Assembly (NCBI GenBank): GCA_003194525.1 | Contig: NBIV01000241.1 | Span: forward strand, 1 to 64,000 | DNA from: Gracilariopsis chorda | Lineage: Eukaryota; Rhodophyta; Florideophyceae; Gracilariales; Gracilariaceae | Direction: 5' to 3' | Length of the DNA stretch: 64,000 nt | Shown here: positions 1 through 60,421 of the stretch, in pieces | How the letters are laid out: each line of letters starts with the position of its first letter | How positions within the stretch are numbered: the first letter of the stretch is position 1 | The notes under the pieces: generated by a model | Databases searched by the model: none | Told to the model about the DNA's origin: nothing | What the model saw: only the letters and a program-made list of their open reading frames with translations | Position numbers and translations under genes: made by a program

Positions 1-470
1 TTTCCATCAAAATATTTTCACACATTCAACACTGCTAGTTTTTTGAAAGTATAAACTAGTAAAGCACTTCACATTTTCCAAGTTATTTCGGACCAAAAAC
101 CGAGTCCGGACTCCGCGAAATGTAGTCCAGACTCCACTACTACATACCTTCACATGTGAACGTGAGATTGAAATCTGACCGGACCACCGGAACTGCCCTT
201 CAAATAGAAGGATAGGATGCTCAGATAAATACATATATAGGAAATACATTAGAGTTTACAAAACATGATAGCCCTCGCTACCTTCACTCGTTGTCAGTGT
301 CTGCGGCCTTGCATAGCATGCACCAGTCCACGAGCCAGCGCAAAACGCTCGGCATCACCTGCTCCACTTCATCCCCGTGCGCCATAATAATTACGCTCCC
401 GCATTTCGCTCTCCAACAACCCCTTTGCTCCCCTTTCTCCTTCCAATCCTTCAACTCTCCTTCCCGCACC
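1..470. other. Left flank, no gene seen
   Basis: AT-rich sequence upstream of the transposase start at 471. No convincing coding frame is present. Two short perfect palindromes are visible: a 12-bp one at 102-113 (gagtccggactc) and a 12-bp one at 149-160 (ttcacatgtgaa). This could be the 5' leader or subterminal region of the DNA transposon whose transposase follows, but no terminal inverted repeat can be fixed because the true left end may lie outside the window. Confidence 0.4.
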
Positions 471-3400
471 ATGTTCCCCTGTTGCTACCCTCGCTGCTCC
501 TTCCACGGCCGCACCACATACTCTCTTCAGAGTCACCAACGCAGGTGCCCCCATCGCCTCACCGCCAACAAGCGTTCCTCCTCCACAGCCACCGCTCCAG
601 TTCAGTTCCCTCCCAGGACCAAGAAGCGAAAATCCGTTCCCAACCTCTCCATCAATTCTCCTCCCCTTCCCTCTCACCGTCCTTCCGACAACGTCCCCGC
701 CGATGATGATCCATATGAACTTCAACAGGCTTCCCTCTCTCTTCAAACCCAAGACGCTTACCATATCGCAAGTCACGCCATCGGCTCCGTCTCCTCCTCA
801 AACCCCCTTCTCCCGCCCCCTTCTCGTTCCCCTTCCCCTCTCGCCGACAACCCTCATCTCGAACAACTCGTCCTCTACATCTCCTCCAATCGCATCCTCC
901 GTCAGCACCCGCAAAGCAGACGAGCTCATCTCCATCCTCAACCATCCAGACTTCTCCAAGTCCTCCTTCCAGACCTCCATCTCCTCCGCCAGGCAGTGCC
1001 TCGCACTGCAAGAGACCTCTTCAAGCAACGCATCAGCTCCAACGGCTTCATCCCTTCCACCATCACAGACAAGCGCAACACCTTCTCCGCAACCCTCTTC
1101 CAGAAACGTGCCATCGACGTCCTCAAGCAACAACTCGCACTCGCACACCTCAACAACACCTTCTTCCAGCCGGTATCTCAATCTTCCTCATCTTCTTCGT
1201 CTTCTGGTCACCCGGCTTTCGCACATCCCATGGCTGCAGCCCTCGGAAAGAAAGTCGTCCCAGCCATCAAACAGGAAATTATGCAGTCCCCCGTCGATGA
1301 CATCGTCTGGCACACCCCCCAGGAAACCGGTATCGAATCATTCATCGGCCTCGTCCAGCTCTACTCGGACAAGTCCGCAACCTCCCTGAAAAGCTCCTCC
1401 TTCAATTCCTACCCCCTCCACGTCACGTTTCTCAACTTCTCCGATGCCCTCCGCCGAAAGTGTATATCCGAAAATCTCACACTCCTCGGATACCTTCCAA
1501 CCTCCTTCTCCCCGTTTACCGCCTTCGACGACGGCGGCGACTACGTCCCGAAATCATCCTCCAACATCCCACGCGAGACCAAAATGAACCTCATTCAGCG
1601 CGCCATCTCTACCATCCTCAACCCACTCCTCACCTCTGCGCTCCCAGGATTCTCCTTCCGTGACGCTCACGGTGTCCTCCGCCACTGCCACCCCATCCTC
1701 GCCAGCTATTGCGCAGACATCCCCGAAGCAAAGGACATCCTCGCCATCTCCCACGGAACACGGCCGCAGCACCCTTGCCCGAGATGCACCGTCCCTCGGG
1801 AACACCTCTTCCTCAATACAGATCCCATCCCCTTCCGCACACAACTCCAAACTCGAACCAATCGCAGACAGCACACCTGCCTTCTCCGCGAATCCGAGGA
1901 AGCGCAAACTCGCCCGGAAACCAAAAGTGGCACGCACCAAAAAAGAAGAGGCAGCAACAGCACTTCATTCTCTCTCCCTCGCAAAGTACACTTCTCTCTT
2001 CGAATCATACCCCATCTTCAACATCACTCCGCTTCTCTCTTCTTACAACATCTTCGCCTTCGAGCCACTGCATAACTTCCACCTCGGCGTCTCTAAACTC
2101 ATCAAAGCCACCGCAATCGAACGTCTCCGATCCGATTCCCTCTTCTCCATTGTCGGTCCCAGCAAATCCAAGAGATCCTTCCAATCCATCCGCACCTCCA
2201 TCCTCAAACACTCCAACTCCATTCTTGCGGCCATCGAAAAAGATTCCCCTGCAACTGGACTCCACATAGACTTCTCCACCTCCGACAACGCTCAAGCTCT
2301 TAACGGCTTCTTCACCACAGAAGGACTCCGTGGAATGCTCGAAGCAAAAGATTACCGCGCACTCGACATGGTATTCCCCTTCATCGGAGCATTCTTCGAC
2401 AGATGCTGCAACGAAATCGACTCCTCCCCAATCACTTCCGTCTTCACCAAGTACACAGATCTCGTTCTCTACGCCATGCGATACAACTCCACTTCCGAAT
2501 GGACCGAAGACTCTCTCAAATCACTCGAACGACAGATCAGATCCTTCAAACTCACAGCCACCACCGTCCTCGGACCCTACCACTCTTCGCACCTCGGTAC
2601 CCTCAAGTTCCATCTCCTCGATCACATCGTCGACGACATAAGTAGATACGGAGGTCTGCACTTCAACGACGCAGGCATATTCGAACATGCCCACGTCCTC
2701 TTCAAATCTCACTACTCCAAGACATCCAAACGAAGAGCCACTGCCCACAACGAAACCATCCGCGCTATAGACCGCTCCACCGCCATCAAGGATTGGAATC
2801 CACTCTCAGCAGAACCCTCTATTGCTTCTCATCCTCCATCAAAAACTCCAACCGAACCCCGAAAACCATGCTTTGTACGCGACGGAAAACAAATCTCATT
2901 CTACGACATCTTCACTGCTGCAAAGTACCTCGGATGCAATCCAAACGTTTCTCCAAAACTTCTTCAAGAACTCTTCTCCGCAGACACTCTCTCCATCATC
3001 TCACAACTCGGTCACACGGCTCTCCATTCGTTTATCTCTCTCTCAATCGAATACCTCAACCTCGACCTCTCCACGAAACAACTACGTCAAACTCGTCTCA
3101 CCATCCTCAACTCAGGATACGTCGTCGGCGGCTACACTCCCACCCTCGACAATTACAACCCCGAACAAAACGAACTCATGCTTCAAGAACCTCCTGTGTC
3201 TCTCCTTCAGCGCATCTTCGCCGTTCAATCCTTCGGACCCTCGAAGTCTGCAAAATTCTCCCACATCCTCGTGGCGGCACAAACTCCTCCTCTTCATCCA
3301 AACCCATCGTATGGGTCTCCAAGCTCATCGCCCTCGTTCGCTTCACAGTACCTTCTGCTTCCTCAACTTTCCCCACCTCGACCACAGAGGAATTTTCATT

Positions 3401-3730
3401 TGTACAATTTCTCGAAGTCGTACCACCTCGCGACCAAGTAGATATAACCCTCAACTGTGTATCCTTCGATGGTCAACCGATGACGAACACAACCACACCA
3501 CAAATCCCGTTCCCATCTCCAAACCATCCACAGACGATAACGTTTCCCCTTGGTTCGGACTCGTTCCTTCAACTTCCATTCTCGGTGCAGTGCACGTCGT
3601 GCGTCAAAACTACCCCGCCCCACCCTTCACGTCTCGACTTCACTGGCGTTTCCATCGTTTCTACATTAACCGCTTCTATCGCGACACCGCTTCAAAGCCC
3701 TACAACCCCCATTCCACTACCCCTCCATAA
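471..3730 (+). pseudogene. Plavaka-like (CACTA superfamily) transposase, frameshifted
   Basis: Likely transposase of a Plavaka-type DNA transposon. The ATG at 471 opens a Cys/His zinc-finger-like N-terminus (MFPCCYPRCSFHG then HQRRCPH), typical of this family. A middle segment has a family-like cysteine pair (CPRCTVPREHL, near 1780-1810). A second frame, from about 1840, carries FEPLHNFHLGVSKL (near 2065-2100), like the LLHEFELGVWK block of fungal Plavaka proteins. The C-terminus shows EEFSFVQFLEVVPP (near 3390-3430), then, in a third frame, LGAVHVVRQNY and HRFYINRFYRD (near 3580-3690). Reading the whole protein needs frame changes near 1820-1850, 3290 and 3460. No good GT-AG introns were seen at these points, so decay or sequence error is more likely than splicing. 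The family call rests on remembered motif patterns. Confidence 0.6.
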
Positions 3731-3794
3731 ACTATCCGTTCCACTTGAACAACTACTCGCCTCCCTCAACACCCTCCATTTCACCGTAGAGCTC

Positions 3795-6123
3795 TTACCT
3801 TGAACCATTCCTCCCATTCCCTCCGTTCTCATTCTGCAACCTCTTCATCCACACATCCTCCGGCCGACAAGCAGCAACATAACAGTCAAGCACCCCTCCA
3901 AGTCGTTTCGTCAGGTGCTCCACGAAGTACTCATCCCTCATTGCCAAGTAGATCTCCCGCTTCGAAGGTATCCAAAGCGCAACCGTCGCTTTCCTATTCT
4001 CATTCCCTGCTATGCGACGCGGATCCCCCTCGTCGAACCCTTCATTCTCCAATTCCTCATGGTGCCGTTCCCTCACTCTCTCCCATGCCACCCCAATTAT
4101 GTTCTCCAGAGCAATCGGGAGATACTCACCAAAACAACTTTGAAAACAATAACTGCCGTTTTCCTCCACGGCCCACATTCGTGTCCAACGCAGTCAAAAC
4201 ACATCCGATCCAAGCATCCAAGCGTGCCAAATTCATCACAGTTCCATCCACATAATCTGTCTTCCCTTCGCCTCCCGGTACCACCTCATATCCCATAAAC
4301 TCTTCCAGCACTTCTACCGCAGCTCCGTTCTTAAAGTACATGTCCTCCCCACCAAAGTCCCTTAACCTTCGAGCAACTTGAAATCCAGAATATGTAAGAT
4401 CGTCAATCGCACTCATTCTCCATGCACATAAGATTCGGCTCTTCTCTACCTCCTTTCCCATTAACTTGCTTCTCGCTTCCTCTAACTGCTTCTTCAATTC
4501 GACATCAAGCTCCGTCCCCTCCTGAGGTCTCACACGTCTTGCTATCAAGTCATACCCAAGTAGCGAAAACAACTTTTCCCGTGCCGCCCGCTTCCGAACC
4601 CCAATCACATCGCTCAACGTTTGCTTCATACGCTGCCTCAAACACCTTTCCCGAGCTACGTCCTGCATACACTGAATCTTCTTACCCGCTTGTCGAATCG
4701 ACTCCCATCTATGCCCTTCAATCTCAACACCAATCAAATACTTCAAAAGTTCATTGCTTCCTCCTCGCAAACTCGGTGTATACGCCCTCATCTCCGATAC
4801 GATCTCAAAGGGACACCGAGGAACAATTTCGTTCCCTCCCACTACGAATACACTCGACTCCGTCCCTTTCCCTAAGATCTCACACCGGTTCGTCCAGTTC
4901 CTCTCCATTCGATCCGTAGTAAAACAAAGCTCCGACACTTCCAACTTTGCGTAATACAATATCCTATCATACACTACCCTAGCAAATCCATAAAAGCTCT
5001 CGTCCACATCAACCACATACTTTTTACGCCTCGTCAAATCAGTGTCTCCCCCTTCAGCTCTTCTTCTCTCCGCACTCCTTACCTTTATCCCTTCCCTCAA
5101 ACTGTCAATCAGCATGTTCTTCTCGATCATTTCTTCCCTCATCCTCTTCAGTTCCTCCTGTGTCAGCTTCGAAGATATCTTTAAAGTAGTATGGTCCTCC
5201 TTAAGGCTTCCAAGTTCTCCCTTTAGCGAATTCACCTTCTGAACCAATGTAGGTCTAGACAACACACCGATCTCATCATCATCAAGGTCCTTCACAACAT
5301 CGGTACTCACCACTTGCTCATCACGGGGTGACTTATTCACATTCTCTTCCGCCTCCAATCCCATTTCGAAAGATCGGTCAAATGATACCGAAATTCTTCG
5401 CCTTCTCTCCCGCATTCCTTCCGGTGTACGCAGCGCATTGCGTCCGCTTTCTTTCTCTACGTCAGGGACGATGTCCATATTCCTCGATCGGATGGGAGTG
5501 CCACCATTTCCATCTTGATCTCTCGTGGCCTCATTCTCATGAAATACATTAGAACACCGCCCGTGCTTCTCACGTGCACTTCCTTCGGTACACCTCCCCT
5601 TCGTAATCTCATCTTCGCGCTCTCCTTCGCTCTCAGGCAAATAAACATTCACCTCTTCTTGCGCGCGCTCTTGATTACCACTGGGAGCTCCACGTCGCTT
5701 GGAGTTACGACACTCCTGCACCTCCTTTCCACACGACAAGACCTTCCTCACTCCTGAGCCTTCAGCGCGTGCCTGCTCGGAAACACCATCTCCCTCCACT
5801 CCGCTCCTGTCGTGTTTCGCAGCTTCCTCGTTGGATCTCCGCTTCATCCGTTGCACGCGCCTTGGTTCCTTGCCAGACCGCGCCTCTCGGGAGAGCTCCG
5901 GCCTCAAATTATCGTTTATCGTGCGATCCGATGCGCCACTTGGGTTTGAACCCCCTGTCCCTCCTTTTCTCCCGGACAAACCGCTCCTCGGAACGCGGGT
6001 AGCTCCTACCTGAGGTCCTTTCGTGCCACTCGGACTTCGTTCCTCCACACCCCTCCGTCGCGTTCTCGGTGCATTCGTCGCGCCTTCCCTCCCGGCGCCT
6101 CTCTTCTTCCCCTTCACGGGCAT
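3795..6123 (-). pseudogene. Coiled-coil protein of the transposon cluster, one frameshift
   Basis: Unrecognised protein. The first ATG in frame is at 6123 (MPVKGKKRGAGREG). An upstream GTG at 6213 opens the same frame but is an unlikely start. The N-terminal third is very basic, polar and Arg/Glu-rich and probably disordered. A coiled coil follows (LVQKVNSLKGELGSLKEDH onward, roughly residues 285-355 from this start), then a conserved-looking globular C-terminal domain. The frame stops at 4126, but coding character continues in the next frame to 3795 (EYLPIALENIIGVAWERV). The break falls in a four-base A/T run at 4131-4134, so a single-base indel is the simplest explanation. The stop also overlaps a donor-like GTGAGTAT, so an intron is possible. 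Its 3' end lies tail-to-tail with the transposase. An accessory transposition or structural role is only a guess. Confidence 0.5.
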
Positions 6124-6382
6124 AGCTGTTAGATAATGTCGCGTGCTTGTGGCGGGAAACACCGCGGCCCTAAAACGACGTGTGCCGAGCAGGAAGAACT
6201 CACGAAAAGCCACGAAGGGTTTTTGGCATTAGTTCCACCTCTCTGAAAACATGAAAAAAATTACCCTGATGTTCCTACCACTCGTTAACCGAATGGGTCC
6301 CCTGACATATCGCCCCCCCATCAAGGACTTTTTCACTAAAGTAGCTATGTGGTTTACAAACTCGGTTTCTTTAGTATATAAG

Positions 6383-9300
6383 CTAGTCAATTACAATAGC
6401 TCCATCATCTATACGCAGATGCGTCTGAGTATGCCAATCATAGACATTTCCGTATTCACTAAAGATTTCGTCCCCTTCCTCTATTTCAACAAGGGCTTCC
6501 AGCTTGATAAGCCTGTAGTCTGTTAGTTTCCTACGGTTCAGCCCTAGGCCAGGTGAACGTTTCATCCGCACGTTAGCCTCACGCTTTTTCACAAGGCCAT
6601 CTACCGTAGCATCTAAGTCCTTATCGCCTTCGACATACTTAGGGTCGTTAATATACCCTGCAACACAAAACGGAGCTGGAACAACCCAAAAAATCGGGTT
6701 GGTTTGTTTTCCATGGTTCAGTATTCTCCGATGAGGTAGTGCAGAGAACTGATGCCCATGAACATCCACCTCCACCGCATATTTTCGAAAGCGATCCTTC
6801 GTCACACCCATAACTCCGTCCCCGTAGGTCTTGTGCACTTCTTTACGGTTCGTCAGATCATGATACACGAGTGTCCCATAGAAGTAGCACACTACCTCCC
6901 CTACAGCAATTCGACGAGTTGCAAACACTCCAACACCAGCGTTATCGTGGCGGATAGTAGACTTGCTGATTCGTAGTCCATAATGCACAGCTTCCATTGC
7001 CAGCAGCGAGTTCATGTTCTCCAGATTCATCCTACCCTGCAGCACGCTAGGCCATTGATCGAAGGTCCTGCTCTTACCCAATTTGGCTACCTCTTCACTT
7101 CTCCACAGCGTCGACAGGAACTGGACGACGTGTGGGGGAAGCATCAGGTACGGAGAAAAGCCATTGACTGCCTTCCATGACAAGGTATGCCTCAATCTGC
7201 CCATTGGGAATGCGATGACAACAGTATGGGCCATCTTCCTGAGCTCTTGGTTCTTCTCAAGATTGGTGTTTCCCTCCCGGATTATAGAAGCAAAACGAAC
7301 AATGGCAGCATGCTTTGCGTGTTCAAAGCAAGCTTTATCGTCTTCACATCCTACAAATATCCGGTGCTTCGGCAGTTCCATGCATGCCATCGCTGTAGAG
7401 AACGTCCCCGCAAAGAGGTCAACCACTAGGTCTCCTGGCTGACTAAACCTGCAAATGAGTTCCTTCAGCAATGCCCTACACTTCTGTTCCGGTCGCACCT
7501 TTTTCCTCGTAGTGATTCTCTCCGAGTTTGTCACATTCCATAGCAGAGTTTCGCCATAAGACATAGGCGGCACCTGGTCTATGATTGCGTGATATGCCGG
7601 GTAGCGTGAAGGGATAAAATTAAAGTTCTCATAGTTCACCATTCTGTGCTGTTGGGAATACGGGACCCCAGAGCGCACTGCATGTACGGCATACTCCGAC
7701 GTCTGGTACAGCCGACAGCTCCGCCTTCCCGGATTACCCATCGAGTTCCCCATGGATCGTACGAACTGGAGAGGTTGTTCGTCCACGACAAAAGAAAAAC
7801 GAGTTGTGCCAGAGTCATCTGTGTACGTAACACTCTGCAGCACCTCCCGCCACTTCTGTATCTGATCCCACGAGCAGAACAATATAACATGCCCACCGGG
7901 ACGTAGCAACTTTGAAATTCTTTTCCCTGCCCGGGCCATGGTCTTCTCGGTGAGAACATCATGACCACTGTTCTCCCGATTACGCTCCGCACGAGTCCCA
8001 TATGGGGGATCCGAAAGCACGAACTGTACCCTTCCTTCAATGGATAGTTCGCTGTCCCCGGACTTGTTGTCGTCGACTTCGACAAGGTCTTGGAAACTGC
8101 ATTTGTGAAGACGGAAGCTGCGGGACATCTGCCTCTCACAGTACTCGTACGACATCAACTGATCTAAAGTCTTCGGATACGGTGGAGGTTGAACACCAGT
8201 CTCCTTCACGCTGTACGTCAGTCTCTGAGACAATGTCGTTGTCTGCAGACCAGTAGTAGCTCTTGGAGCAGCCACACTCTCCACCACCTCTTCGACCTCA
8301 TTATCAGCGATACCTTCCTTTTCATGAATACCTTCATGCCTCCCAGCAGCAGGGTTGGTCCGTACCGGCACCATCATGATATCGTCATCTTCCCCAGGCT
8401 CCTGCTTAACAGCTTGATGAACGGCGAAATTGCTTCCATGCGATTTAGTTAGCTTAAGAGGCTTGATGGCATCCTGAACTGTAGTGACAAGAGACTCACT
8501 AAAGTCCTCAAATCGTGTAGGGAAATGCCTTGTGTTCGTGATATTGAATCTCTTTAGAGCATCCCATTTACTGGGAGCAGAGATTTCGAACAGTTTCTCT
8601 TGTACTACCACACTGGAAAGGTCCCCAAGGTATTCCTTTGCACATAAACGAAGTCCTGTATCAACTGCGCCAGGTAGGCTCCAAGCCCATTCCACAACGT
8701 TCTCCCTGATGGTAGTGGCGTTCTTCTCCTTCACAAATTGTTTCGAGCAGTCTTTGTGTTGAAAACCCAGGGAAGGTTCTCCAATATCTTTGAATACCAT
8801 GTTACGGTAGTCCAGTCGAATGTACGGCAATATCATAACCTCGACGTTGGGAAAACCAAGAAATTGTGCAAAGCAATCCCATGCCCTGGTAACCAGCTGG
8901 ACGCCATAGCCCACTCTCTGACATTGCAGCTTGTCAGACAGGCTCACCTTCGAGAACTTCGTACTAGACATTCCGAATTTCCTTTTTCTACCACTCGCTT
9001 TCTTATGCAACGAGATGTTCTGCACCATAGAAAAGGCTATGAAGAATTCGAAATCCGTGCAAGGTTTGGTGTGGAAAGGAGAAGAGTTATTGATGACGCC
9101 TAGCACTCGAGACTTGAAGAACACACTTAGCAATACATTGCGTGGTATACCCTTATGCACCTCGCTTCCACAATAAAGCTCCCAAAAGTCCCTCACGCGT
9201 CGGTCCCCATCACCATCCTTCAGGTCCACTACTCTTGCCATCAAGTACATCTGACGTGCCGGACCCCTAGAAGCGACTTTCCGTAGCTCGGAATCGGAGT

Positions 9301-9565
9301 ACGAGGTGTAATCCGGTCCGATGAGAGTATAGAACATTTGCTTCACAGACTCATGAACGTTTCGGGTTTCCACCGCGAACGTCAAGAAATCGCTGTGCTT
9401 CAGACCTCTCGGCTCGTCAAAGTTTTGCCTCGTCGCCACGTAGGCGTCGCGAATACCCAGGTAAGCAGCAAGAAGCTGCTCCCCAGTTCCATGCATCTTA
9501 CCGCTTCCCGAAGCACTCCCGGTGGCGGCCGACCTCACATTAACTTCTTCGACGGAGGAGCCCAT
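6383..9565 (-). CDS. DNA amino-methyltransferase fused to SET domain
   Basis: Intact 1060-residue ORF with ATG at 9565. Residues 1-470 match no family I recognise. Residues about 475-760 form an S-adenosylmethionine-dependent DNA amino-methyltransferase (N6-adenine or N4-cytosine): motif IV is DPPYGTR at 519-525 and motif I, VVDLFAGTFS, lies after it at 714-723. Catalytic motif before SAM motif is the beta-class order. Residues about 864-1045 form a SET domain: AGVGVFATRRIAVGEVV (876-892), a YINDP block (971-975) followed by EANVRM (996-1001), and FSEYGNVYDW (1035-1044) with the Tyr expected at the active site. A SET domain methylates lysines, usually on histones. VKQE at 386-389 followed by an acidic stretch fits a sumoylation consensus. 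The protein is probably nuclear. It is divergent from the gene at 10512 across a giant palindrome. Specificity (A or C) cannot be told from sequence. Confidence 0.85.
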   Translation of the reverse strand: MGSSVEEVNVRSAATGSASGSGKMHGTGEQLLAAYLGIRDAYVATRQNFDEPRGLKHSDFLTFAVETRNVHESVKQMFYTLIGPDYTSYSDSELRKVASRGPARQMYLMARVVDLKDGDGDRRVRDFWELYCGSEVHKGIPRNVLLSVFFKSRVLGVINNSSPFHTKPCTDFEFFIAFSMVQNISLHKKASGRKRKFGMSSTKFSKVSLSDKLQCQRVGYGVQLVTRAWDCFAQFLGFPNVEVMILPYIRLDYRNMVFKDIGEPSLGFQHKDCSKQFVKEKNATTIRENVVEWAWSLPGAVDTGLRLCAKEYLGDLSSVVVQEKLFEISAPSKWDALKRFNITNTRHFPTRFEDFSESLVTTVQDAIKPLKLTKSHGSNFAVHQAVKQEPGEDDDIMMVPVRTNPAAGRHEGIHEKEGIADNEVEEVVESVAAPRATTGLQTTTLSQRLTYSVKETGVQPPPYPKTLDQLMSYEYCERQMSRSFRLHKCSFQDLVEVDDNKSGDSELSIEGRVQFVLSDPPYGTRAERNRENSGHDVLTEKTMARAGKRISKLLRPGGHVILFCSWDQIQKWREVLQSVTYTDDSGTTRFSFVVDEQPLQFVRSMGNSMGNPGRRSCRLYQTSEYAVHAVRSGVPYSQQHRMVNYENFNFIPSRYPAYHAIIDQVPPMSYGETLLWNVTNSERITTRKKVRPEQKCRALLKELICRFSQPGDLVVDLFAGTFSTAMACMELPKHRIFVGCEDDKACFEHAKHAAIVRFASIIREGNTNLEKNQELRKMAHTVVIAFPMGRLRHTLSWKAVNGFSPYLMLPPHVVQFLSTLWRSEEVAKLGKSRTFDQWPSVLQGRMNLENMNSLLAMEAVHYGLRISKSTIRHDNAGVGVFATRRIAVGEVVCYFYGTLVYHDLTNRKEVHKTYGDGVMGVTKDRFRKYAVEVDVHGHQFSALPHRRILNHGKQTNPIFWVVPAPFCVAGYINDPKYVEGDKDLDATVDGLVKKREANVRMKRSPGLGLNRRKLTDYRLIKLEALVEIEEGDEIFSEYGNVYDWHTQTHLRIDDGAIVID

Positions 9566-9890
9566 GATATACCTCGATGGCTATGCAGCTAGTTTGAAAA
9601 TGAACGGACGTGGGGGAGGAACGTGATACTCCACACGTTCGGAGCGGTCGCGGAGCAAAGAGAAAGTGGTTACCGTGTTTTTCGGTGGTCGTCAATGACC
9701 AAAAGTTGCAATCACGCGGATGAAGATTGGCGGGTTTTCGGAATCGTTGTAATGCTTGTGAGCCGGCGTGGTTGTACTGCGATGATAGGAGAGAATATCT
9801 GCGCATCGACACCGATTGCATGAAGGAGCGCGGCGGTCAGAAGATCATTGCGAGAAACTATGCTGATGTTGAACTGCTAGGGGGGGTGGA

Positions 9891-9964
9891 GGTCCGTGGA
9901 CCGGAGTGTCGTGGCGCTTCATCAGGCGCCTGATGAAGCGCCACGACACTCCGGTCCACGGACC
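9891..9964. repeat. 74-bp perfect palindrome, copy 1
   Basis: Two 37-bp arms meet without a loop at the ggcgcc centre (9925-9930). The arm begins ggtccgtggaccggagtgtc. The same arms recur at 10127-10200. Such a sequence would extrude as a cruciform or form a hairpin in single-stranded DNA. Confidence 0.95.
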
Positions 9965-10120
9965 TTCGCCACCCAGCTGTTCAGAAAATCAAAAAATTAG
10001 TGTAAAATGAACCATGCATCTTCCGCCCATGACCTACTAGGTCGTACCGCAGATGTCCGTTCATTCCAGACACTAATTTTAAACTAATTTTTTGATTTTC
10101 GGAACTGCTGGCCGCCACGT

Positions 10121-10206
10121 GGTGGAGGTCCGTGGACCGGAGTGTCGTGGCGCTTCATCAGGCGCCTGATGAAGCGCCACGACACTCCGGTCCACGGACC
10201 TCCACC
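10121..10206. repeat. 86-bp perfect palindrome, copy 2
   Basis: Same core as the palindrome at 9891-9964, with arms extended by 6 bp (ggtgga / tccacc) to 43 bp each. Between the copies, gaaaatcaaaaaattag (9984-10000) is inverted at about 10084-10100, so the 328-bp block 9882-10209 folds back on itself at two levels. Confidence 0.95.
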
Positions 10207-10511
10207 CCCAAAAACAAACTTCGAATACCAATGCAAAATCATTACAGGTGCATTGCAGCGCCGCCTAAATGAACTTAATGGTTGTCAGGAAACGTCTTCA
10301 ATACCATGTATTTCAAAAGTATAGATGCTCACGTCGCCTGAACCGAGCAGACGTGATCACGAGAGCATCTTACGCGACTGGGTGCCACGACAACTTGATC
10401 ACGCGAACGCTTCAAGATTGCAGCGTGGTTCTCGGCCGGAATAAGAGTTCTACGAAGACGAAGAAGCATTGTCCCAGGAAATCCGCTTCGCTGCGAAGGC
10501 CTGACATAGAA

Positions 10512-11603
10512 ATGCCGACTACGCGAGGAAAAGCGAAAAGCATGGGCAGCTCCAGAGCTTCCAACCTTTCCACGCCTCCGCCCGCTCAACGCGATGCAAA
10601 CAGAGAGCTCCATGGTGGGGCGTCTGTCAATTTGTTTGTGCGAATCGGTAATAGCGATGAAAAGGTGAAGGTTGGCAAAGCACAATTGCGGGGTATGGAC
10701 GTAGCGGGTGGATCTGGGCCTGGAACAGGACTCTGCCGATCTCTGCATCGCCATCCGTTGTCGTCTTACCAGAAAGAGGGACAGGATTTGGTAGTGATAT
10801 GGAAGGCTAATATATCGTCACATGGAGATGAAAGGTATCCGTACGTATTTGGAGGTCCTGAGGAACCGCCCGCTACTCTGAAGGAGATGGTGTCTGCAGG
10901 GCTGTATGCGTGGGACACTGCAATGATGAGCAGTAGGGAGGACGTGGGAGAGGGGGGTGAGTCGGTTCCACCGCAGTCAGCAATAAATGTGAAGGCTGCG
11001 CAGCCAAGCACTAGTGCTAGTACTGCAACGACTCCTATGAAGCCAAAGAAGCCCCTGGCCACTCCGAAGACCCTTTCGAAGCAAAAGAACCCCCCCGCGA
11101 CCAAACAGAAGAAGCCGCTGGCGACTCCGAGGGTACCTGGTACACGTAGGAGGCTCGTTTCAACTGCCCCTGGGTCGCCGTCAAGCATTTTGACGAGTAG
11201 AGCACCAGTTAAAAGGATTGAGAGTGGTGAAGCGGCCTCAGGTCCTGCCGATATAGAACCCTTTCCAAGAGGAAGCTCAGGAACGAGAGGCCGTGGCCGT
11301 GGAAAGGGAGATGTGACACCGCGACCTGCTAGCAGAGGAGTTAGAAAACCGCAGGAAACTGAACGTGAAGAGGTGTCTGCTCCCCTCATTATTCCTGAGG
11401 CACAAGAGGAAGCGAAAGAGGTGGTAAGCGTGGAAGACTCTGATGATGACGTCATAGAGGTGCCGCGACAGTCCAATAAGGACCTCACCCCAGAGGAGAG
11501 GGTTTTGTATGATGAGGGGGATGTAGTTGGTTCAGGGGGCATTTTGGTTCATTGGCATACGTACCTTTGCGGCACAGCCAGCGAATGGCACGGATTTCTG
11601 TGA
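10512..11603 (+). CDS. Basic Ser/Pro/Lys-rich protein with SUMO-interacting motif
   Basis: Unrecognised protein of 363 residues from the ATG at 10512 (MPTTRGKAKSMGSS). An in-frame ATG at 10269 would add 81 residues that look non-coding. The first about 120 residues have a folded-domain look (VNLFVRIGNSDEKVKVGKAQ). The middle is low-complexity, with repeated KKPLATPK-type segments and an RGRGRGKGD patch, which suggests DNA or chromatin binding. Near the C-terminus is VVSVEDSDDDVIEVPR, in which an acidic run precedes VIEV, the pattern of a SUMO-interacting motif. The last residues overlap the next gene's start by 19 bp, so a frameshift or an unrecognised short intron joining them cannot be excluded. 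Probably nuclear; function unknown. Confidence 0.6.
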   Translation: MPTTRGKAKSMGSSRASNLSTPPPAQRDANRELHGGASVNLFVRIGNSDEKVKVGKAQLRGMDVAGGSGPGTGLCRSLHRHPLSSYQKEGQDLVVIWKANISSHGDERYPYVFGGPEEPPATLKEMVSAGLYAWDTAMMSSREDVGEGGESVPPQSAINVKAAQPSTSASTATTPMKPKKPLATPKTLSKQKNPPATKQKKPLATPRVPGTRRRLVSTAPGSPSSILTSRAPVKRIESGEAASGPADIEPFPRGSSGTRGRGRGKGDVTPRPASRGVRKPQETEREEVSAPLIIPEAQEEAKEVVSVEDSDDDVIEVPRQSNKDLTPEERVLYDEGDVVGSGGILVHWHTYLCGTASEWHGFL

Positions 11604-12181
11604 TTCGAAACAGACTACTTGGATTCACGATGGCAGGTCTTTTGCCGTTGAATGTTTGTATTTTTGTTGGCTATCACTTCTTGGAAGCGCCAATTTCGAT
11701 TGGAATGGAACTTAGGACTGGTGCTCTTGCATTTTTCACTGGTGGTTTCATGTTTGGGGGTAGGTCGTATGTGGTTGAACGGCTAACGATGTTTTTTGTG
11801 ACTAGGGACAGCATTAACAATGAGAGAGAGCTCCCATATGTGCAGAGAGGTAGTGTTGGGCTGATTTTGGATGTGTGCAGGACCGTATACGGTGGTTTGA
11901 ATAAGGTGCTTGGGTTTAGAGATGGTGTGGCTACTATGAGGCTCTATATCGGAAGGGTGTTCCCTGTTGTGTTTACCTACTTGATTTTCACGTTCCTGAG
12001 CGATACTTCTTTGCACAAGGTAAGGGGACTCGCGCCTGTAGTGGAGAATACTATCTTTTTCGTGCTGCTTCTTTTGGGTATGGCTGTGGATATGGACTTG
12101 GAGTACCATTTTCGAAGGTATGTTGCGAATCTAGGAGAGCACTGTAGGCCTTTTGGTTCTCGTTTTGAACCATTTCTTTAG
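11585..12181 (+). CDS. Multi-pass membrane protein, unrecognised
   Basis: A 198-residue ORF starting at the ATG at 11585 (MARISVIRNRLLGF). Four hydrophobic stretches are visible: LLPLNVCIFVGYHFL, TGALAFFTGGFMFGG, VFPVVFTYLIFTFLS and NTIFFVLLLLGMAV. Basic residues lie between them, and the C-terminal tail is hydrophilic. I do not recognise the family. It overlaps the end of the upstream SIM-protein ORF by 19 bp in another frame, so it may instead be a downstream exon of that gene. A membrane protein is unusual cargo for a DNA transposon. Confidence 0.5.
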   Translation: MARISVIRNRLLGFTMAGLLPLNVCIFVGYHFLEAPISIGMELRTGALAFFTGGFMFGGRSYVVERLTMFFVTRDSINNERELPYVQRGSVGLILDVCRTVYGGLNKVLGFRDGVATMRLYIGRVFPVVFTYLIFTFLSDTSLHKVRGLAPVVENTIFFVLLLLGMAVDMDLEYHFRRYVANLGEHCRPFGSRFEPFL

Positions 12182-12423
12182 ACACGTTCGTTATTCTACC
12201 TGTACATACCTAAGTTAGTGTGATAGAGTTGTAAACTGAAGGAAGTGTTAAACTAATGTCGTTCTAAATTTTTCGTTTCAGATTATTGGTGGGACACGAC
12301 TCGGTGGGAAATGGCGCGAAAACGGGGGAGTGAAAAAATGCGGTTGGATAAGTACCTGGGGAGTGCTCGCTTGGTGGTTGGGTTAGGAATGGGAGCGCCG
12401 TTGTGGTGGGGCGTGTAGTAGCC

Positions 12424-13182
12424 ATGTCTAGCGAAGACGTGAATGATGAGGAGCTACTGGCGTTGTTGGATAAAGCGGAGAAGAGGGAGGTCCCCGAGAC
12501 GCCTCCAAGGACGAAGAAGGAGGAGGAAGGGAAGGGTGATGGTGAAGAGGGCAAGGGAAGGAACGTTGTTGGGTTCGGGGAGCTTGGGGTTGGGACGATG
12601 ATGGGAGGGGATGGGGGGGAGGGAAGTGAGGGCGAGGGAAGTCGAGGAGGACGGGGAGGAGGAGGAGGTGGGGCGGGGCGAATGAGTCGGTTTTACCGCG
12701 ATGTGAAGAAACTGGTGAGGAGCGTGGGCGGAGGGCTTAAGGAGCGTTTGGATGAGTGTATCGAGGAGGTTGTGGTGGAGATGGGGGGGATGGTGCTGAG
12801 TTCTTCAGAGGAAGGGGTGCCTATGGGTGCTGTGGCTGAGCTGCGTAGGAGGGCAAGGGAGGCTGGGGTGTGGGCGGAAATGCATGTCGATGGGGTTGTG
12901 GCGTGTGTGGGTGAGGAGCTGAGGAGACTGTGGAAGGAGAACGAGGAGATGCGTAGACTGGTTTTGGTGTTGGAGAAGCAACTTTTACTGGTTGGTAGGG
13001 CTGTGCATCTAATCGAGGAAATGCAGAAGAAGGTGTGTGATGCGGAAGGGAGAGCTGTTGTCGGGAAAGGCACTCCTGTTACTCCCGGTCGAGGGGCTGT
13101 AAGGAAGAGGTTGGAGGAGAAGGACGACGAAGGAATAGAAGGTGAGAGTCGGTTGAAGAGGAGGCGTGGAATGAGAGGATAA
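12424..13182 (+). CDS. Acidic-then-basic coiled-coil protein, unrecognised
   Basis: A 252-residue ORF from the ATG at 12424 (MSSEDVNDEELLALL). The upstream GTG in the same frame (12403) is an unlikely start. The N-terminal third is acidic and Gly-rich (GEEGKGR, then GGRGGGGGGAGR). It is followed by a helical region with a probable coiled coil (LRRLWKENEEMRRLVLVLEK) and a basic tail (RLKRRRGMRG) that could be a nuclear localisation signal. An acceptor-like pyrimidine tract with CAG (12264-12281, tttttcgtttcag) lies upstream, so an intron in the 5' leader is possible. Function unknown; it is the last gene before the H1 boundary. Confidence 0.5.
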   Translation: MSSEDVNDEELLALLDKAEKREVPETPPRTKKEEEGKGDGEEGKGRNVVGFGELGVGTMMGGDGGEGSEGEGSRGGRGGGGGGAGRMSRFYRDVKKLVRSVGGGLKERLDECIEEVVVEMGGMVLSSSEEGVPMGAVAELRRRAREAGVWAEMHVDGVVACVGEELRRLWKENEEMRRLVLVLEKQLLLVGRAVHLIEEMQKKVCDAEGRAVVGKGTPVTPGRGAVRKRLEEKDDEGIEGESRLKRRRGMRG

Positions 13183-13635
13183 GGAGAAGAAGGATGGTAA
13201 GGATGGTAAGGGAGGTTTTATGTTTGGTGTTCAAGAGTGTGGGTGCCACCCAGTGAGGCTGAGAGAACAGTTGGGCTCCAAACTTTGACAATTTGAAGTT
13301 TGAAATCCACGAGATGGAAATATGTAAGTTAATTTGGGTTGCATGGGGGTGGGGCCGCTGGCCGCTACGCGGCCAGCGCCATTTCGAGCCCTCTAACTAG
13401 CGTTTAGTGAGCAAAGAACTTGCTCTAAACTTGAAACTAGCGAAGTGCGGTACTAGGGACGGATGACAATAGAAAATATGAAAGAGTGATTTCCGAAAAA
13501 TTTTTTTTTTTGCTTGCCAACCACCACGAACTAGCAGAATCTAGCGTTTTCGTAGTTTTTTTGAGTGATTGCCTAACAAACTTGCGATCTAGCACCCTTA
13601 TCTAGCATTCCGAGAACACCGACGGAATGGGGGAT
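13183..13635. other. Non-coding end region with hairpin and CTAGC cluster
   Basis: No gene. It contains a GC-rich hairpin at 13356-13378 (10-bp arms cgctggccgc / gcggccagcg, loop tac). Six copies of CTAGC follow, at 13397, 13437, 13531, 13541, 13589 and 13602, three of them extended to CTAGCG. A small hairpin, cattccg/cggaatg, sits near 13606-13627. Clustered short motifs near an end resemble transposase-binding subterminal repeats of CACTA-like elements; that role is an inference. Confidence 0.5.
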
Positions 13636-14042
13636 TTCGAAGTCGGTCCCGCACTTGCGCATTGTTTGCGGCATTCGCAGTTGCCCCATCTCCAGCAACA
13701 GTAGCAGAAGCAGCCTTCACTACATCGTGCGTTTCTGTTACGGTTCCCTCTACCAATAAGGGTACTTGAGACTTGTCTTGGTAGAGGCCAGTCAGATCCA
13801 CGACGATAGTTCTCATCATGGTTGGCCCCCCTCAATGAGCATATTCAGGAAGAGGGCCAGCATCTGAATGGCACGCACTTTCTCTAGCACTTTAGGTTTC
13901 TTCGTATCCACGTATGACTACTCCTTGTTCCGCTGCTTGTATGATATGCACGGCAGTGTACGCATTTTGTTTTCGTTTTTTTTTTGTTTTTGTTTTGTTG
14001 TTGTTGTTGTTTTTTGTTGTTGTTGTTGTTTTTTGTTGTTGT

Positions 14043-14088
<46 letters not shown>

Positions 14089-14089
14089 A

Positions 14090-14135
<46 letters not shown>

Positions 14136-26480: not shown

Positions 26481-29400
26481 ATGGACGAATGGATCGACGA
26501 CCCTTTGGAGCCGTCGCTGGATGACCAGGACCCTATTTGTGTCCTGAGGAAGGAGAACTATAAAGTTCGAATGACCATAGGACTCCGCCCCTCACACTCT
26601 AGAGTGGCTACGAGTGTGCTGGACACGGGCGCTGGGCCCAATTTGGTACATCCTAAGGTCCTACCGAGTGGTTGGGAAGACAAGGTTCAGGTGAGGAAGA
26701 CCCCTAGGATCACTGATGCTTCGCGCAGACCAATGGCCATTAAAGGAATCATTTCTTTATTTGTCCAACTGGGCAGTTTGCGAGTCCGCACGTGGTTCCT
26801 CGTATGTCCAAACTTGGGAGCGGAATGTATCCTTGGGACTTCCTTCATCGACCGCTACGTGAAGGCCATCTACCCTGGCCTTCGGAAAGTCGCGTTCTAT
26901 CGCGCACATCCTGTGGCCCTGATAGGTTCCAAGCCGGGACCTGAGGCAAACCCGCGGAAACCTCCACTGGCGACGAACACTGTGTCCAATAAGGTCAGGC
27001 TCACAAAAGCCCTGGTCATCCCTGCGATGACTCAGACCACCGCTTGGGTTCAGTGCGAGTCCTCTGGTCTTTTGACGCTGCAGAATCATCCCAAGACGAT
27101 CCGGCGTCAACTCACCCTTATGGCCAATGGAGTTATGGACATCCGTCCGCGGCAGCCCTTTGTGGTCAGTATCAGTAACTTCACTGACCACCCGGTTCGA
27201 TTACCTAAAGGAACAGTAGTTGGCATCGCCCTGCCAGCTCCTGTGGCCATTATGGAAACCAATATGGACAACTCCCAACCGGACGACGACGAGGACGTCG
27301 AGTCCTGGGAGGGGGACGTCAACATTGGCGACGAATTAGAATCCTATAGGCCTCAGGTTATAGAGCTCCTTCGGGAATTCAAATCCATGTGGTCTGGCCA
27401 GCTAGGCGAGATTCGGGCGACAAAGCACCGAATTGACCTTAAGGACGACGCGAAGCCAGTGTACCAGCACCCCTATAGGACGGGCCTAAAAGGAAGAACC
27501 ATCGTGGCCGAACAGATGGACAAGATGAGGAGGGCCAACGTCATCGAGCCAGCTCCTCCTCATCAGTCCGAATGGGCAAGCCCTTTTGTCCTTGTGGCCA
27601 AGAAGGATGGCTCCGTCAGGTTTTGCGCTGACTATAGGAAGCTCAACGCTATGACCAAACGGGATTCGTACCCTATCCCCCGGATGGACGACTGTCTCGA
27701 TTCCTTAGGAGAGGCAGCTGTCTTTACCACCTTGGACGCCAATTGGGGATATTGGCAAATACCACTGGACGATGACGCGAAGCCGCTGACCACGTTTACG
27801 ACCCACGAGAGACTTTTCCGATTCATTCGGATGCCCTTTGGATTAATGAACGCACCCGCGACGTTCCAGAGGGCAATGGACATTATCCTATCTAGGGTCA
27901 AATGGCAGTTCGCGCTGGTCTACTTGGATGACGTTATCATCTTTTCGAAGACCATTGGTGAACATTTCTCCCATGTTAGAACAGTCCTGAGGATTCTCCG
28001 TGAGGCCGGAATAACTTTGAAGCTCCCCAAGTGCTTCTTTTTCCAGTCCTCTGTGGATTATCTTGGCCATGTGGTCCGCCCTGGCTGCCTACAGGTTGCC
28101 TCGAGGACGACTGACGCCATACGGCAAGCTAAGCCCCCCAGGACCCATACGGAGTTGCGTTCTTTTTTAGGTCTGTGCAACGTCTATCGTCGCTTTGTCC
28201 AAGGGTTTGCAAAGATCGCTGCGCCGCTTAACGACATGCTGCGCAAAGGGACCCCATCGGAGTTCGATTGCCTGACGGACGAACAATACGAAGCTTTTGA
28301 GGCCCTGCGGGATAAGCTTCTGAACCCTCCTATATTGGCCTTGCCTAAACCGGACAAACCGTACATCCTTGATACGGATGCGTCCGATGGCCAAATTGGA
28401 TGTGTTCTCCTCCAGGAACAAGAATCTCCGAAGGACTATAGACCAATTGGATATTGGAGCCGCTCGCTAACGAGCCCAGAGCGGAATTATAGCACGTCCG
28501 AGAAGGAGTGCTTAGCCATTGTCTGGTCAGCATTAACCTTAAGGCCATACTTGGAAGGAGTCCGCTTTACCATTAGGACTGATCATCATTCCCTCAGGTG
28601 GCTTATGAACATGACCGACGCGTCCAGCAGGCTCGCCCGATGGAGATTGCGCCTGTCGGAGTTTGATTTCGACGTTGCCTATAGGCCGGGGATCAAGCAC
28701 CGAGCAGCGGATGCCCTCTCTAGGATCCTAACCGACGGCACCGACGAATCCCCACTGGACGACGAGCTACCCACGCCGGACCTTTCAGGTTATGAATCTG
28801 ACCATGAGGATGACTTCCTTCTAGGACGCGTTAATTGCGATGACTCCGATGTGGACGTGAATGCAGTTTACCTTGTGGACTGGCCTATGGATGACGACAG
28901 CGAAGCGCGGACCCTTGAGGTTCATGCGGTTCAACCAGAGGAAAAGGAGCTCTTGCCCATCACGCTGGATGAGCTCCTTCAGGCCCAAAAGGACGACGAG
29001 TACTGCAAAAACCAGGCTGACCTCGCCGGGACCCCTGGCTGTCTGTTCGACTACGACCGATTCGGACTGCTCTGTCGCAGAGCCCCTCTGGACGGAGCAA
29101 TCCAGCGGGTCATTCCCAAGGTCCTCAGGGCACGGGTTCTATACCTCGCCCATTACCCCCGGTTGGCCGGCCATCCTGGCGGAACAAGAATGTATCAGTC
29201 CTTAAGGAAACATTTCTACTGGCCCTTTATGGCTAATGACCTCTGGCAGACCTCTAGGACATGCGCTTCGTGCGTGAAAGCACGCGGCTCGAAAACCAGC
29301 CATCAGGCCAAGTTGAAGCTGTTCCCAGCCGCAGGACCACTGGAGTTTATCGCTACGGATATCCTAGGGCCATTACCGTCAACGACCCATGGGAACAAAT

Positions 29401-30743
29401 TTATATTGGTGCTTACCGATCGGTTCACCAAGCTCACCAGAGCTATTCCCATGAGGTCCACTACGGCCACTGACGTAGCAATGGCGTTCTTGACCCATTG
29501 GGTGTATCCATATGGTCTGCCACTTTATCTCCTATCGGACAACGGGCCACAATTCGTGTCGAAATTCTTCGCTCACGTCTGTTCGACCTTAGGAATTAAG
29601 CACGTCACCACAACGGCTTATCATCCGCAGAACAATGGACAGGCTGAGCGCTTCAATAGAACCATTAAGGACAGGTTGGTGCATTATGTTGCAGAGCACC
29701 AGGCCGATTGGGATGACTACGTCGGACCACTGGTCTATGCGTATAACACGCAAGTCCATCGGTCCACGGGGACTACACCCTTCGACCTAACGCTCACGCG
29801 ACAGCCCCCGCACTTTGCGGTTGACCTTAAGGACAGCTGGATACCACAGGACTTCACGGCAGAAATGACCCCTGCCCAGGCCAAACGGTACACCCGGAAG
29901 CGGATTGACGATATCATCCGTACGGCCAGAGCACGGTTGAACAAGTCCCAACGGAGGTACAAGGATGAATTCGATAAGTCCGTCAGGTTTACGCTATCCT
30001 TTAAGGCCGGTGACATGGTCTACTTAGACCGCGCTCCATCGGATAAGCCGCAGGACGATATCGAGGTCATCACTCGAAAGCTCCTCCCACGGTCCACTGG
30101 TCCCTATAAGGTTCTCTCAGCTACGTCCCATACGGTCACTATTGAAATCGATGGCCTACAGGACACCGTCGCAATTGACCGCGTTACGGCCGCGCCTATG
30201 CCGCCGAAGCCCACTGGTTCCCCTTTGGAAACTCCTGAGGACGCCCCTTCAGATGCTCCCAATTCCGCCGTACAGGACTCTACACCTACGGACGAGCAGC
30301 TTTCGTCCCGCCCTACGGTAGTTACGGCAGATCCATTGATCGCTACACCACTTCCAAAGGCCGTCTCGGCTGACCCACTGGCCCCCTCATCCCAAGAAGA
30401 ACACAACGACGGAGTACCGTCCCAGTTGGCCAATGATGGTTACGCCCCTTTGGACGAGATGGATCTCCCCGAGGAGTGGCCTGTGGATGTTCCGAAGGAC
30501 GTATCTTCACTTCCTAAGGAAAGCGCTATAGACCGTGTGGTCAATGCCGGCATTGACGACGACGGCGTCGTCAAATACCGTGTCCATTGGTACGGCTACA
30601 AACCCTCTGAGGACACATGGGAACCCCGGGAGAACATCCCGGAGAACTTTGTCCTTAGGTTTTGGCGCCGCATGGGCCGCACGGAGCGCGAACTTAAGGA
30701 GGGGGCATACATATTGAAATCCAATGGTCAAGGTTCGAATTAA
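26481..30743 (+). CDS. pol: E2 Pol polyprotein (PR-RT-RNaseH-IN-chromodomain)
   Basis: A 1420-residue ORF from the first ATG; in the element it is probably made as a Gag-Pol fusion by -1 frameshifting, since the frame is open upstream into gag. The aspartic protease has VLDTGAGPN near residue 48. Reverse transcriptase has LVYLDDVIIF near 480, RNase H YILDTDASDGQIGC near 630. Integrase shows the HHCC zinc site (HYPRLAGHPGG, then CASC) near 890-935 and the DDE core ATDILGPL, LLSDNGPQF and GQAERFNRT between about 960 and 1060. A C-terminal chromodomain, at about 1350-1400 (RVHWYGYKPSEDTWEPRENI), marks it as a chromovirus-type Ty3/gypsy element and would guide insertion to modified chromatin. All motifs are intact. 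Confidence 0.97.
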   Translation: MDEWIDDPLEPSLDDQDPICVLRKENYKVRMTIGLRPSHSRVATSVLDTGAGPNLVHPKVLPSGWEDKVQVRKTPRITDASRRPMAIKGIISLFVQLGSLRVRTWFLVCPNLGAECILGTSFIDRYVKAIYPGLRKVAFYRAHPVALIGSKPGPEANPRKPPLATNTVSNKVRLTKALVIPAMTQTTAWVQCESSGLLTLQNHPKTIRRQLTLMANGVMDIRPRQPFVVSISNFTDHPVRLPKGTVVGIALPAPVAIMETNMDNSQPDDDEDVESWEGDVNIGDELESYRPQVIELLREFKSMWSGQLGEIRATKHRIDLKDDAKPVYQHPYRTGLKGRTIVAEQMDKMRRANVIEPAPPHQSEWASPFVLVAKKDGSVRFCADYRKLNAMTKRDSYPIPRMDDCLDSLGEAAVFTTLDANWGYWQIPLDDDAKPLTTFTTHERLFRFIRMPFGLMNAPATFQRAMDIILSRVKWQFALVYLDDVIIFSKTIGEHFSHVRTVLRILREAGITLKLPKCFFFQSSVDYLGHVVRPGCLQVASRTTDAIRQAKPPRTHTELRSFLGLCNVYRRFVQGFAKIAAPLNDMLRKGTPSEFDCLTDEQYEAFEALRDKLLNPPILALPKPDKPYILDTDASDGQIGCVLLQEQESPKDYRPIGYWSRSLTSPERNYSTSEKECLAIVWSALTLRPYLEGVRFTIRTDHHSLRWLMNMTDASSRLARWRLRLSEFDFDVAYRPGIKHRAADALSRILTDGTDESPLDDELPTPDLSGYESDHEDDFLLGRVNCDDSDVDVNAVYLVDWPMDDDSEARTLEVHAVQPEEKELLPITLDELLQAQKDDEYCKNQADLAGTPGCLFDYDRFGLLCRRAPLDGAIQRVIPKVLRARVLYLAHYPRLAGHPGGTRMYQSLRKHFYWPFMANDLWQTSRTCASCVKARGSKTSHQAKLKLFPAAGPLEFIATDILGPLPSTTHGNKFILVLTDRFTKLTRAIPMRSTTATDVAMAFLTHWVYPYGLPLYLLSDNGPQFVSKFFAHVCSTLGIKHVTTTAYHPQNNGQAERFNRTIKDRLVHYVAEHQADWDDYVGPLVYAYNTQVHRSTGTTPFDLTLTRQPPHFAVDLKDSWIPQDFTAEMTPAQAKRYTRKRIDDIIRTARARLNKSQRRYKDEFDKSVRFTLSFKAGDMVYLDRAPSDKPQDDIEVITRKLLPRSTGPYKVLSATSHTVTIEIDGLQDTVAIDRVTAAPMPPKPTGSPLETPEDAPSDAPNSAVQDSTPTDEQLSSRPTVVTADPLIATPLPKAVSADPLAPSSQEEHNDGVPSQLANDGYAPLDEMDLPEEWPVDVPKDVSSLPKESAIDRVVNAGIDDDGVVKYRVHWYGYKPSEDTWEPRENIPENFVLRFWRRMGRTERELKEGAYILKSNGQGSN

Positions 30744-58165: not shown

Positions 58166-58219
<54 letters not shown>

Positions 58220-60053: not shown

Positions 60054-60064
60054 GAAGAAAGAGG

Positions 60065-60421
60065 TCGCAGACTGGACACAGAAACTGATTTGATCACAAC
60101 GGGAGAGAGTGAAGAGAAAAGGCGAAGCGGAACGAAAGTGAAAGACATGGTACTTTTGTCCCTCAACGATGACATTGACACAGATAAAGGTGGAGCGTAA
60201 GAAAAGTCGACGTGGCCTGATAAATGAATCGGAATAAAGAGATCACAGAATGGAAGCAAAAACTGATTTGACCCCAACACGAGAGAGTGAAAAGAAAAGG
60301 GAAGCAGAACGAGAGTGAAGGGCATGGTCCTTTATGCCCTCAACGGCCACCTTGACACAGATGAAGGTGGTGGAGCGTACGACGTTTCGACGTGGCCTGA
60401 TAAATGAATCAGAATAAACAG
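60065..60421. repeat. 178-bp tandem duplication upstream of MFS 2
   Basis: Two diverged copies (about 60065-60242 and 60243-60421) share aactgattt, gagagagtga, cctcaac and tcgacgtggcctgataaatgaatc in order, with a period of 178 bp. They lie directly upstream of MFS transporter 2 and may hold duplicated promoter elements. Confidence 0.8.

Follow-up and report, generated by a model that had tools for sequence, protein, structure and literature searches.

A Plavaka-like DNA transposon of the red alga Gracilariopsis chorda carries a gene fusing a predicted DNA methyltransferase to a SET domain

An open reading frame (ORF) on contig NBIV01000241.1 of the red alga Gracilariopsis chorda (assembly GCA_003194525.1) joins a beta-class amino-methyltransferase to a SET domain beside a transposase gene, which raises the question of what carries this gene and what use a protein with both domains could have. 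The locus was analysed in a stretch of 64,000 nucleotides, positions 1-64000 of the contig, referred to here as the window (window base 1 is contig base 1), and across the genome of 91.3 Mb in 1081 contigs. The data indicate that the methyltransferase (MTase)-SET fusion is almost certainly borne by a transposon, a DNA element with a Plavaka-type transposase, and that its N-terminal, MTase and SET parts are all constrained.

The original prediction placed both domains in a single 1060-residue ORF, and this is borne out: the coordinates are right, both Pfam profiles score above their cut-offs, and the gene can now be assigned to the minus strand (Table 1). The N6_N4_Mtase profile matches with an E-value of 6.1e-18 (66 bits, cut-off 26.7) and the SET profile PF00856 with 1.1e-4 (23.0 bits, cut-off 22.4). 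The two MTase motifs named at the outset are present, DPPYGTR at residues 519-525 (DPPY at 519-522) and D716-L-F718-A-G720 inside VVDLFAGTFS, in the order of the beta class, where motif IV (DPPY) precedes the S-adenosylmethionine motif I (FxG). The SET half holds GxG (G877/G879), N973-D974, N998 and Y1038. The N-terminal region of about 470 residues, described earlier as unrecognised, gave no credible match in profile searches, though its columns are partly conserved in homologues; a match to the designed protein 8etq (E 8e-8) was dropped, as no single stretch of it passes alone. Pfam found no chromodomain in the fusion ORF at an E-value of 1 or better.

A search of 5.8 billion proteins returned 18 homologues (P0001-P0018), which together with the window protein make an alignment of 19 sequences; P0001 is 94% identical, and local identity is 26-38% for the other 17. 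In scans of the individual proteins the N6_N4_Mtase profile matched 18 of the 19 and the SET profile 16 (E 0.1 or better), and a census of motifs found DPPY/F in 18, the SET GxG, ND and Tyr in 16, and both sets in 15. That both sets survive in these 15 sequences, the majority at 26-38% identity, marks the fusion as old, as judged from the alignment, with one half lost in places. P0015 and P0017 have a degenerate SET and an intact MTase and P0018 a degenerate MTase with the SET kept, so that the two activities look separable. P0016, labelled partial by its source, has no SET part; it is filed as a Bacteroidota metagenome-assembled genome and may be a mis-binned contig. The pairing had been thought rare, which is not the case here, since a same-strand SET match follows directly downstream of 59 of the 150 MTase-family matches in the genome, and 17 of the 18 database homologues match the MTase profile. 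A protein profile search returned P0001 alone from 7997 candidates scored, and hence offers no evidence of rarity.

The locus had also been described as a transposon-rich neighbourhood beside a transposase gene. The transposon context stood; the gene is not a neighbour of the transposase but cargo inside a defined element with terminal inverted repeats (TIRs), 2-bp target-site duplications (TSDs) and a Plavaka-type transposase (PF18759, 74.8 bits, cut-off 26.3). When window positions 1-22000 were compared with the flanks of copies, the left TIR of C53 and C64 was found to begin 95 bp before window base 1, that is, outside the contig, for which reason the TSD of the window copy itself cannot be checked; copy C332 showed no end in the stretches compared. 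The TIRs read CGTCGGTGTT[C/T]TCGGAATGCTAG and the termini CGTCGGTGTT..AACACCGACG (CGTCGG..CCGACG). This pattern, with its one free position, has 110 matches in the genome and none for the reversed control; all TIR-based counts rest on 100 of these 110 places, among which 22 pairs face each other within 16 kb. Flanks of 2 bp are identical in all 15 copies read at both ends, 13 of which hold an MTase match, and flanks of 3 bp in none, in agreement with the 2- or 3-bp TSDs of Plavaka transposons. The intact element would measure about 13.72 kb, and the 22 copies with both TIRs among those places are shorter, at 5.6 to 11.9 kb; several copies compared as DNA are internally deleted. As the termini fail the fungal Plavaka pattern (TGT..ACA in PlavakaA, CATCA..TGATG in PlavakaB), the element is only Plavaka-like and of a different lineage. 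By its class, it would move by cut-and-paste. An inverted repeat at 56-84 and 13428-13456 had been considered as the TIR and was rejected once the true ends were seen in the comparison with C53 and C64.

The association of the fusion with the element extends through the genome. Profile searches gave 150 N6_N4_Mtase matches (from 175 candidates), 114 Plavaka matches (E 0.001; a few below the family cut-off), 85 SET matches and 67 matches of the 695-residue accessory ORF of the element. A Plavaka match lies within 12 kb of 73 of the 150 MTase matches, where 4.4 would be expected if the two were independent, and 71 of these 73 pairs are convergent as in the window; the 695-residue ORF lies within 6 kb on the same strand in 47 of the 150. 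One TIR was found near 38 MTase matches and none near 99, at least one being expected for 2.4. SET matches without an upstream MTase number 26 of 85 and include the 13 strongest, by their look host genes of the ordinary kind. The fusion protein itself gives at least 44 match rows in the genome, two of which belong to a single copy; identity is 90-100% in 23 of the rows and 65-71% in the other 21. Among the rows listed are five near-identical full-length copies, four of them without a stop, and these copies, together with the 15 aligned sequences that hold both motif sets intact in one protein, argue that the fusion is not a product of chance. A young subfamily comprises 12 copies that are 99.2-99.5% identical over 1764 bp.

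Comparison of the window protein with 17 copies of the 65-71% identical subfamily, which now carry 2-8 stops, shows purifying selection on the N-terminus, the MTase and the SET domain. The dN/dS ratios (Nei-Gojobori) are 0.154-0.195 for residues 1-470, 0.153-0.198 for the MTase (471-790) and 0.154-0.213 for SET (863-1045), values that amount to about one independent comparison because dS approaches saturation and the 17 copies are related by descent. The stretch at 791-862 is looser (0.19-0.31), and bootstrap upper bounds do not exceed 0.27 in the four of the 17 copies tested.

For the MTase half, profile comparison with solved structures gave DpnA (E 2.9e-17), MboIIA (5.6e-12) and CcrM (8.3e-11), with a cytosine-N4 enzyme at only 3.8e-4, and adenine MTases of restriction-modification systems and of the cell cycle are among the closest relatives of solved structure. 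Since DPPY and the best profile matches are those of adenine enzymes, N6-adenine is favoured over N4-cytosine as the target, without proof, and N6-methyladenine (6mA) is a more likely product than N4-methylcytosine (4mC). The fusion probably does act as a DNA methyltransferase, to go by its motifs and relatives. In PHROGs, the MTase half falls to phrog_67, a phage DNA methyltransferase family (E 1.4e-23), and homologue P0014 has a ParB-like N-terminus matching phrog_1033 (E 2.1e-5); the two matches point to a phage or bacterial origin for the MTase half. These phage families resemble the MTase half and the P0014 N-terminus and differ in that no SET match is reported with them, and the window protein, unlike P0014, has no detectable ParB part. 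A ParB-like N-terminus had been read by eye in both P0014 and P0018; Pfam gave none, and PHROGs backs P0014 only. A search of bacterial and archaeal genomes found 54 loci and a search of viral contigs kept 79 loci of 100 relatives, in each case matching the MTase region only, and SET genes in those loci were not looked for; viral contigs scanned with the SET region and with P0012 gave no confirmed relative. For the SET half, the best matches among solved structures in the PDB are KMT5A (E 3e-9) and KMT2C (E 2e-8), and lysine methyltransferase activity may be regarded as moderately likely.

The host background bears on what such a protein could add. Seven phycobilisome-linker matches (E 4e-31 to 9e-41) on contigs of the genome support a red-algal host, the single match to the phycobilisome domain PF00502 (E 9.8e-5) being too weak to do so; four of the linker contigs (C12, C60, C144, C153) also hold MTase matches. 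A six-frame search of the genome gave no match to C5-cytosine MTase (PF00145), with a control positive in 10 of 14 genomes, all prokaryotic; an enzyme split by introns could be missed, as the search is exon by exon and the controls are prokaryotic only. In 17 older copies, C-to-T changes stand at 0.040 in CpG versus 0.020 elsewhere, a mild two-fold excess by which 5-methylcytosine (5mC) is neither demonstrated nor excluded. According to the accessible part of one report, about 8% of the G. chorda genome is methylated, and repeats in the red alga Cyanidioschyzon carry H3K27me3 (PMC8566409).

These observations can be assembled into an account in which the transposase and TIRs would move the element and the fusion gene would ride as cargo. 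The MTase half would methylate DNA, more likely at N6-adenine, and the SET half a lysine on histones or on another protein of chromatin; recruitment to the element or a partner would probably fall to the conserved N-terminal region. Both marks, placed together on the element's own chromatin, may then counter silencing by the host, so that this chromatin stays open to transcription and to binding by the transposase. We infer both activities, the base and the lysine, the targeting and the anti-silencing role from sequence and analogy. DNA and histone methylation are usually coupled by separate enzymes reading each other's marks. It is conceivable, if rather tentative, that the fusion provides a private two-layer code, with a single polypeptide marking both a DNA base and a histone lysine during one binding event, in a host for which no C5-cytosine MTase match was found. 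Anti-silencing is favoured by analogy with TET-bearing Plavaka and other elements, TET enzymes borne by transposons being thought to help escape from silencing (PMC12730594, accessible part), and by the report that in several eukaryotes 6mA accompanies permissive chromatin and H3K4me3 (PMC12695648, likewise). As the principal role it falls a little short of an even chance, and the whole account of a cargo fusion acting as a double chromatin writer that counters silencing is evenly balanced between true and false.

A number of observations weigh against this account, several of them at the SET domain. Canonical SET enzymes carry an NHxC motif with its NH pair. The domain had been called complete, which holds for GxG, the asparagine and the C-terminal tyrosine and fails for this pair, in which N973 is kept and the histidine is replaced by aspartate (D974), so that lysine methyltransferase activity is less certain than the word complete implies. 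The Pfam score barely exceeds its cut-off, and the alignment to KMT5A consists of two separate weak stretches, with the ND region outside both. The MTase might thus be the sole enzyme and the SET a weak or dead binding module, which would be compatible with other roles of the protein; ND instead of NH in every one of the 16 aligned sequences whose SET is intact speaks for this, while the retention of GxG, Asn and Tyr in those sequences, the low SET dN/dS and the loss of the MTase rather than the SET in P0018 speak against it and leave it somewhat unlikely. Nor is the MTase half free of doubt, as three adenine-MTase models of NCBIfam matched the fusion ORF and none came near its own cut-off. 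The published link of 6mA to H3K4me3 concerns MT-A70 enzymes, another family. Beside the effectively single selection comparison, near-identical copies show few differences and a SET dN/dS that scatters up to 0.92, L139 and L162, which have frame slips, give 0.36-0.92, and catalytic residues are replaced in some of 28 genome copies (D519, Y1038 and D974 in two each; N973, G720 and P520 in one each). The association with the element is also incomplete. For 77 of the 150 MTase matches no Plavaka match lies within 12 kb, perhaps because a contig ends there, the element has decayed or another carrier is involved, and no more than 13 of the 150 are enclosed by a pair of facing TIRs within 15 kb. 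The 77 are what could be expected of an ordinary algal gene captured by chance with no role for the element, a reading that the purifying selection and the recurrence of the order Plavaka, 695-residue ORF and MTase-SET where the latter is only 65-71% identical make very improbable.

The deleted copies bear on the role more directly. Among the rows listed, 11 internally deleted copies, 10 of them without a stop, match residues 420-1014 only; five derivatives with this protein match (C64, C37, C12, C144, C232) measure 7981-7987 bp between TIRs, and C64, aligned as DNA, is without the first 419 residues and without the end of SET that holds Tyr 1038, and keeps the whole MTase. This class presumably multiplied in trans, and its spread without the N-terminus and SET end makes a strict need for the whole protein doubtful. 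That derivatives without an intact SET still spread would suit a function in the control of transposition, as would the wider retention of DPPY/F (18 of 19) than of the SET motifs (16 of 19) and the restriction-modification and cell-cycle enzymes among the closest solved MTases. The MTase would then mark the element ends or palindromes and tell replicated from unreplicated copies or tune transposase binding, a role such as Dam plays for Tn10, and the SET would open target or donor chromatin or be secondary; as the SET is under purifying selection like the MTase, this is unlikely. The opposite of anti-silencing, repressive DNA and lysine marks on copies that curb their number and the damage they do and so make the element tolerable to the host, is made conceivable by the many older copies that decay in place, by the known retrotransposons with a DNA methyltransferase (PMC5890265) and by the rotifer enzyme N4CMT, which with SETDB1 silences transposons (PMC8885841), both as given in the accessible parts of those sources. 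An element gains less from silencing itself, however, the young multiplied subfamily is at odds with it, and transposon-borne TET is read as aiding escape in the available part of that report (PMC12730594), which together render self-silencing decidedly improbable. Escape from host silencing thus stays the preferred role for the fusion, at the strength given above.

The features of the element are collected in Table 1. Small indels set the window copy apart from its sister copies in the transposase frame; several sister copies have open transposase frames of 910-1160 residues and others are shorter. The accessory ORF is open over 748 or 821 residues in most near-identical long copies, and has one relative outside the assembly, P0019, at 89% (8000 candidates scored). 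Break points of several internally deleted copies fall in the palindrome region. Elsewhere in the window, LTR-retrotransposon-type polyproteins with reverse transcriptase, RNase H and integrase occupy 26481-30743 and 40069-44484, the first ending in a chromodomain. An ordinary host gene for myo-inositol-1-phosphate synthase lies on the minus strand at 62370-63995, a tandem repeat of 178 bp in two copies at 60054-60418, a TTGCTG array at 13995-14135, about 370 bp past the element end, and an AC run at 58168-58218.

Table 1. Coordinates of the Plavaka-like element and its features in the window
Feature	Position	Strand	Remarks
Plavaka-like DNA transposon copy	1..13624	.	in copies C53 and C64 the match runs from base 1 to 13624
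Transposase gene, first part (PF18759)	291..2075	+	frame broken in window copy; Pfam E 9.5e-21
Transposase gene, second part	1660..3441	+	other frame in window copy; overlapping ORF
Accessory ORF, 695 aa, no known domain	4126..6213	-	convergent to transposase gene, as is the MTase-SET gene
MTase-SET fusion gene	6383..9565	-	1060 aa, ATG through stop
SET domain	6449..6937	-	aa 877-1039; GxG, ND, C-terminal Tyr
Beta-class amino-methyltransferase domain	7313..8029	-	aa 513-751; DPPY then FAGT
Fusion N-terminal part (~470 residues)	8156..9565	-	conserved region of unknown fold and variable linker
Two near-perfect palindromes (arms 43-47 nt) around a third inverted repeat	9881..10209	.	upstream of fusion gene
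ORF 444 aa, no known domain	10269..11603	+	within element
ORF 209 aa, no known domain	11552..12181	+	within element
ORF 259 aa, no known domain	12403..13182	+	within element
Right terminal inverted repeat CGTCGGTGTTCTCGGAATGCTAG	13602..13624	-	end comparison with copies, TIR pattern count

In the published literature, as far as its accessible text extends (most subscription papers, and apparently Repbase reports, lie outside the coverage), neither a DNA-MTase-SET fusion nor a Plavaka element of red algae bearing such cargo was found; the accessible text of PMC10538959 and PMC12633428 likewise holds nothing relevant to the fusion. Mobile elements with TET, SET or DNMT genes are already in print, and a DNA-MTase-SET fusion as cargo is apparently new, for which this coverage is no proof. 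What the present locus adds is a mobile element that fused a DNA-MTase domain to a SET domain, both kept under selection across long divergence, which suggests an element equipped with a chromatin-marking tool of its own. If both halves are active, the protein would be a naturally occurring dual writer of the epigenome. It would then offer synthetic epigenetics a tool and allow a direct test of the idea that transposons resist silencing by means of marks. The finding also makes 6mA and 4mC in red algae directly testable.

Several known systems share part of this design, here compared on the accessible portions of the sources. Mariner elements with MTases (PMC3627910) and giant Plavaka repeats in Amoebidium (PMC11244446) have been published. 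Retrotransposons with DNMT genes occur in dinoflagellates and charophytes, and DIRS elements carry Dam-like adenine MTases (PMC5890265); like the red-algal element, these are mobile elements carrying a DNA methyltransferase, but they are retrotransposons with C5-cytosine or Dam-type enzymes, and no SET domain is mentioned in the text available. The HarbingerS and MuDR transposons of Phytophthora are DNA transposons with a SET gene (PMC12730594), but belong to transposase superfamilies other than the Plavaka type of the window, with no fused DNA methyltransferase mentioned in that portion of the report. Fungal Plavaka transposons carry TET/JBP genes (PMC12730594) and share with the red-algal element a Plavaka-type transposase, 2-bp TSDs and cargo acting on epigenetic marks, whereas their termini differ as set out above and their cargo is a dioxygenase acting on 5mC rather than a writer fusion. 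The N4CMT of bdelloid rotifers (PMC8885841) likewise joins a bacterial amino-MTase to a chromatin module in a eukaryote, but its module is a chromodomain reader and its product 4mC, whereas the window protein pairs a DPPY enzyme nearest to N6-adenine MTases with a SET domain and is carried in a transposon.

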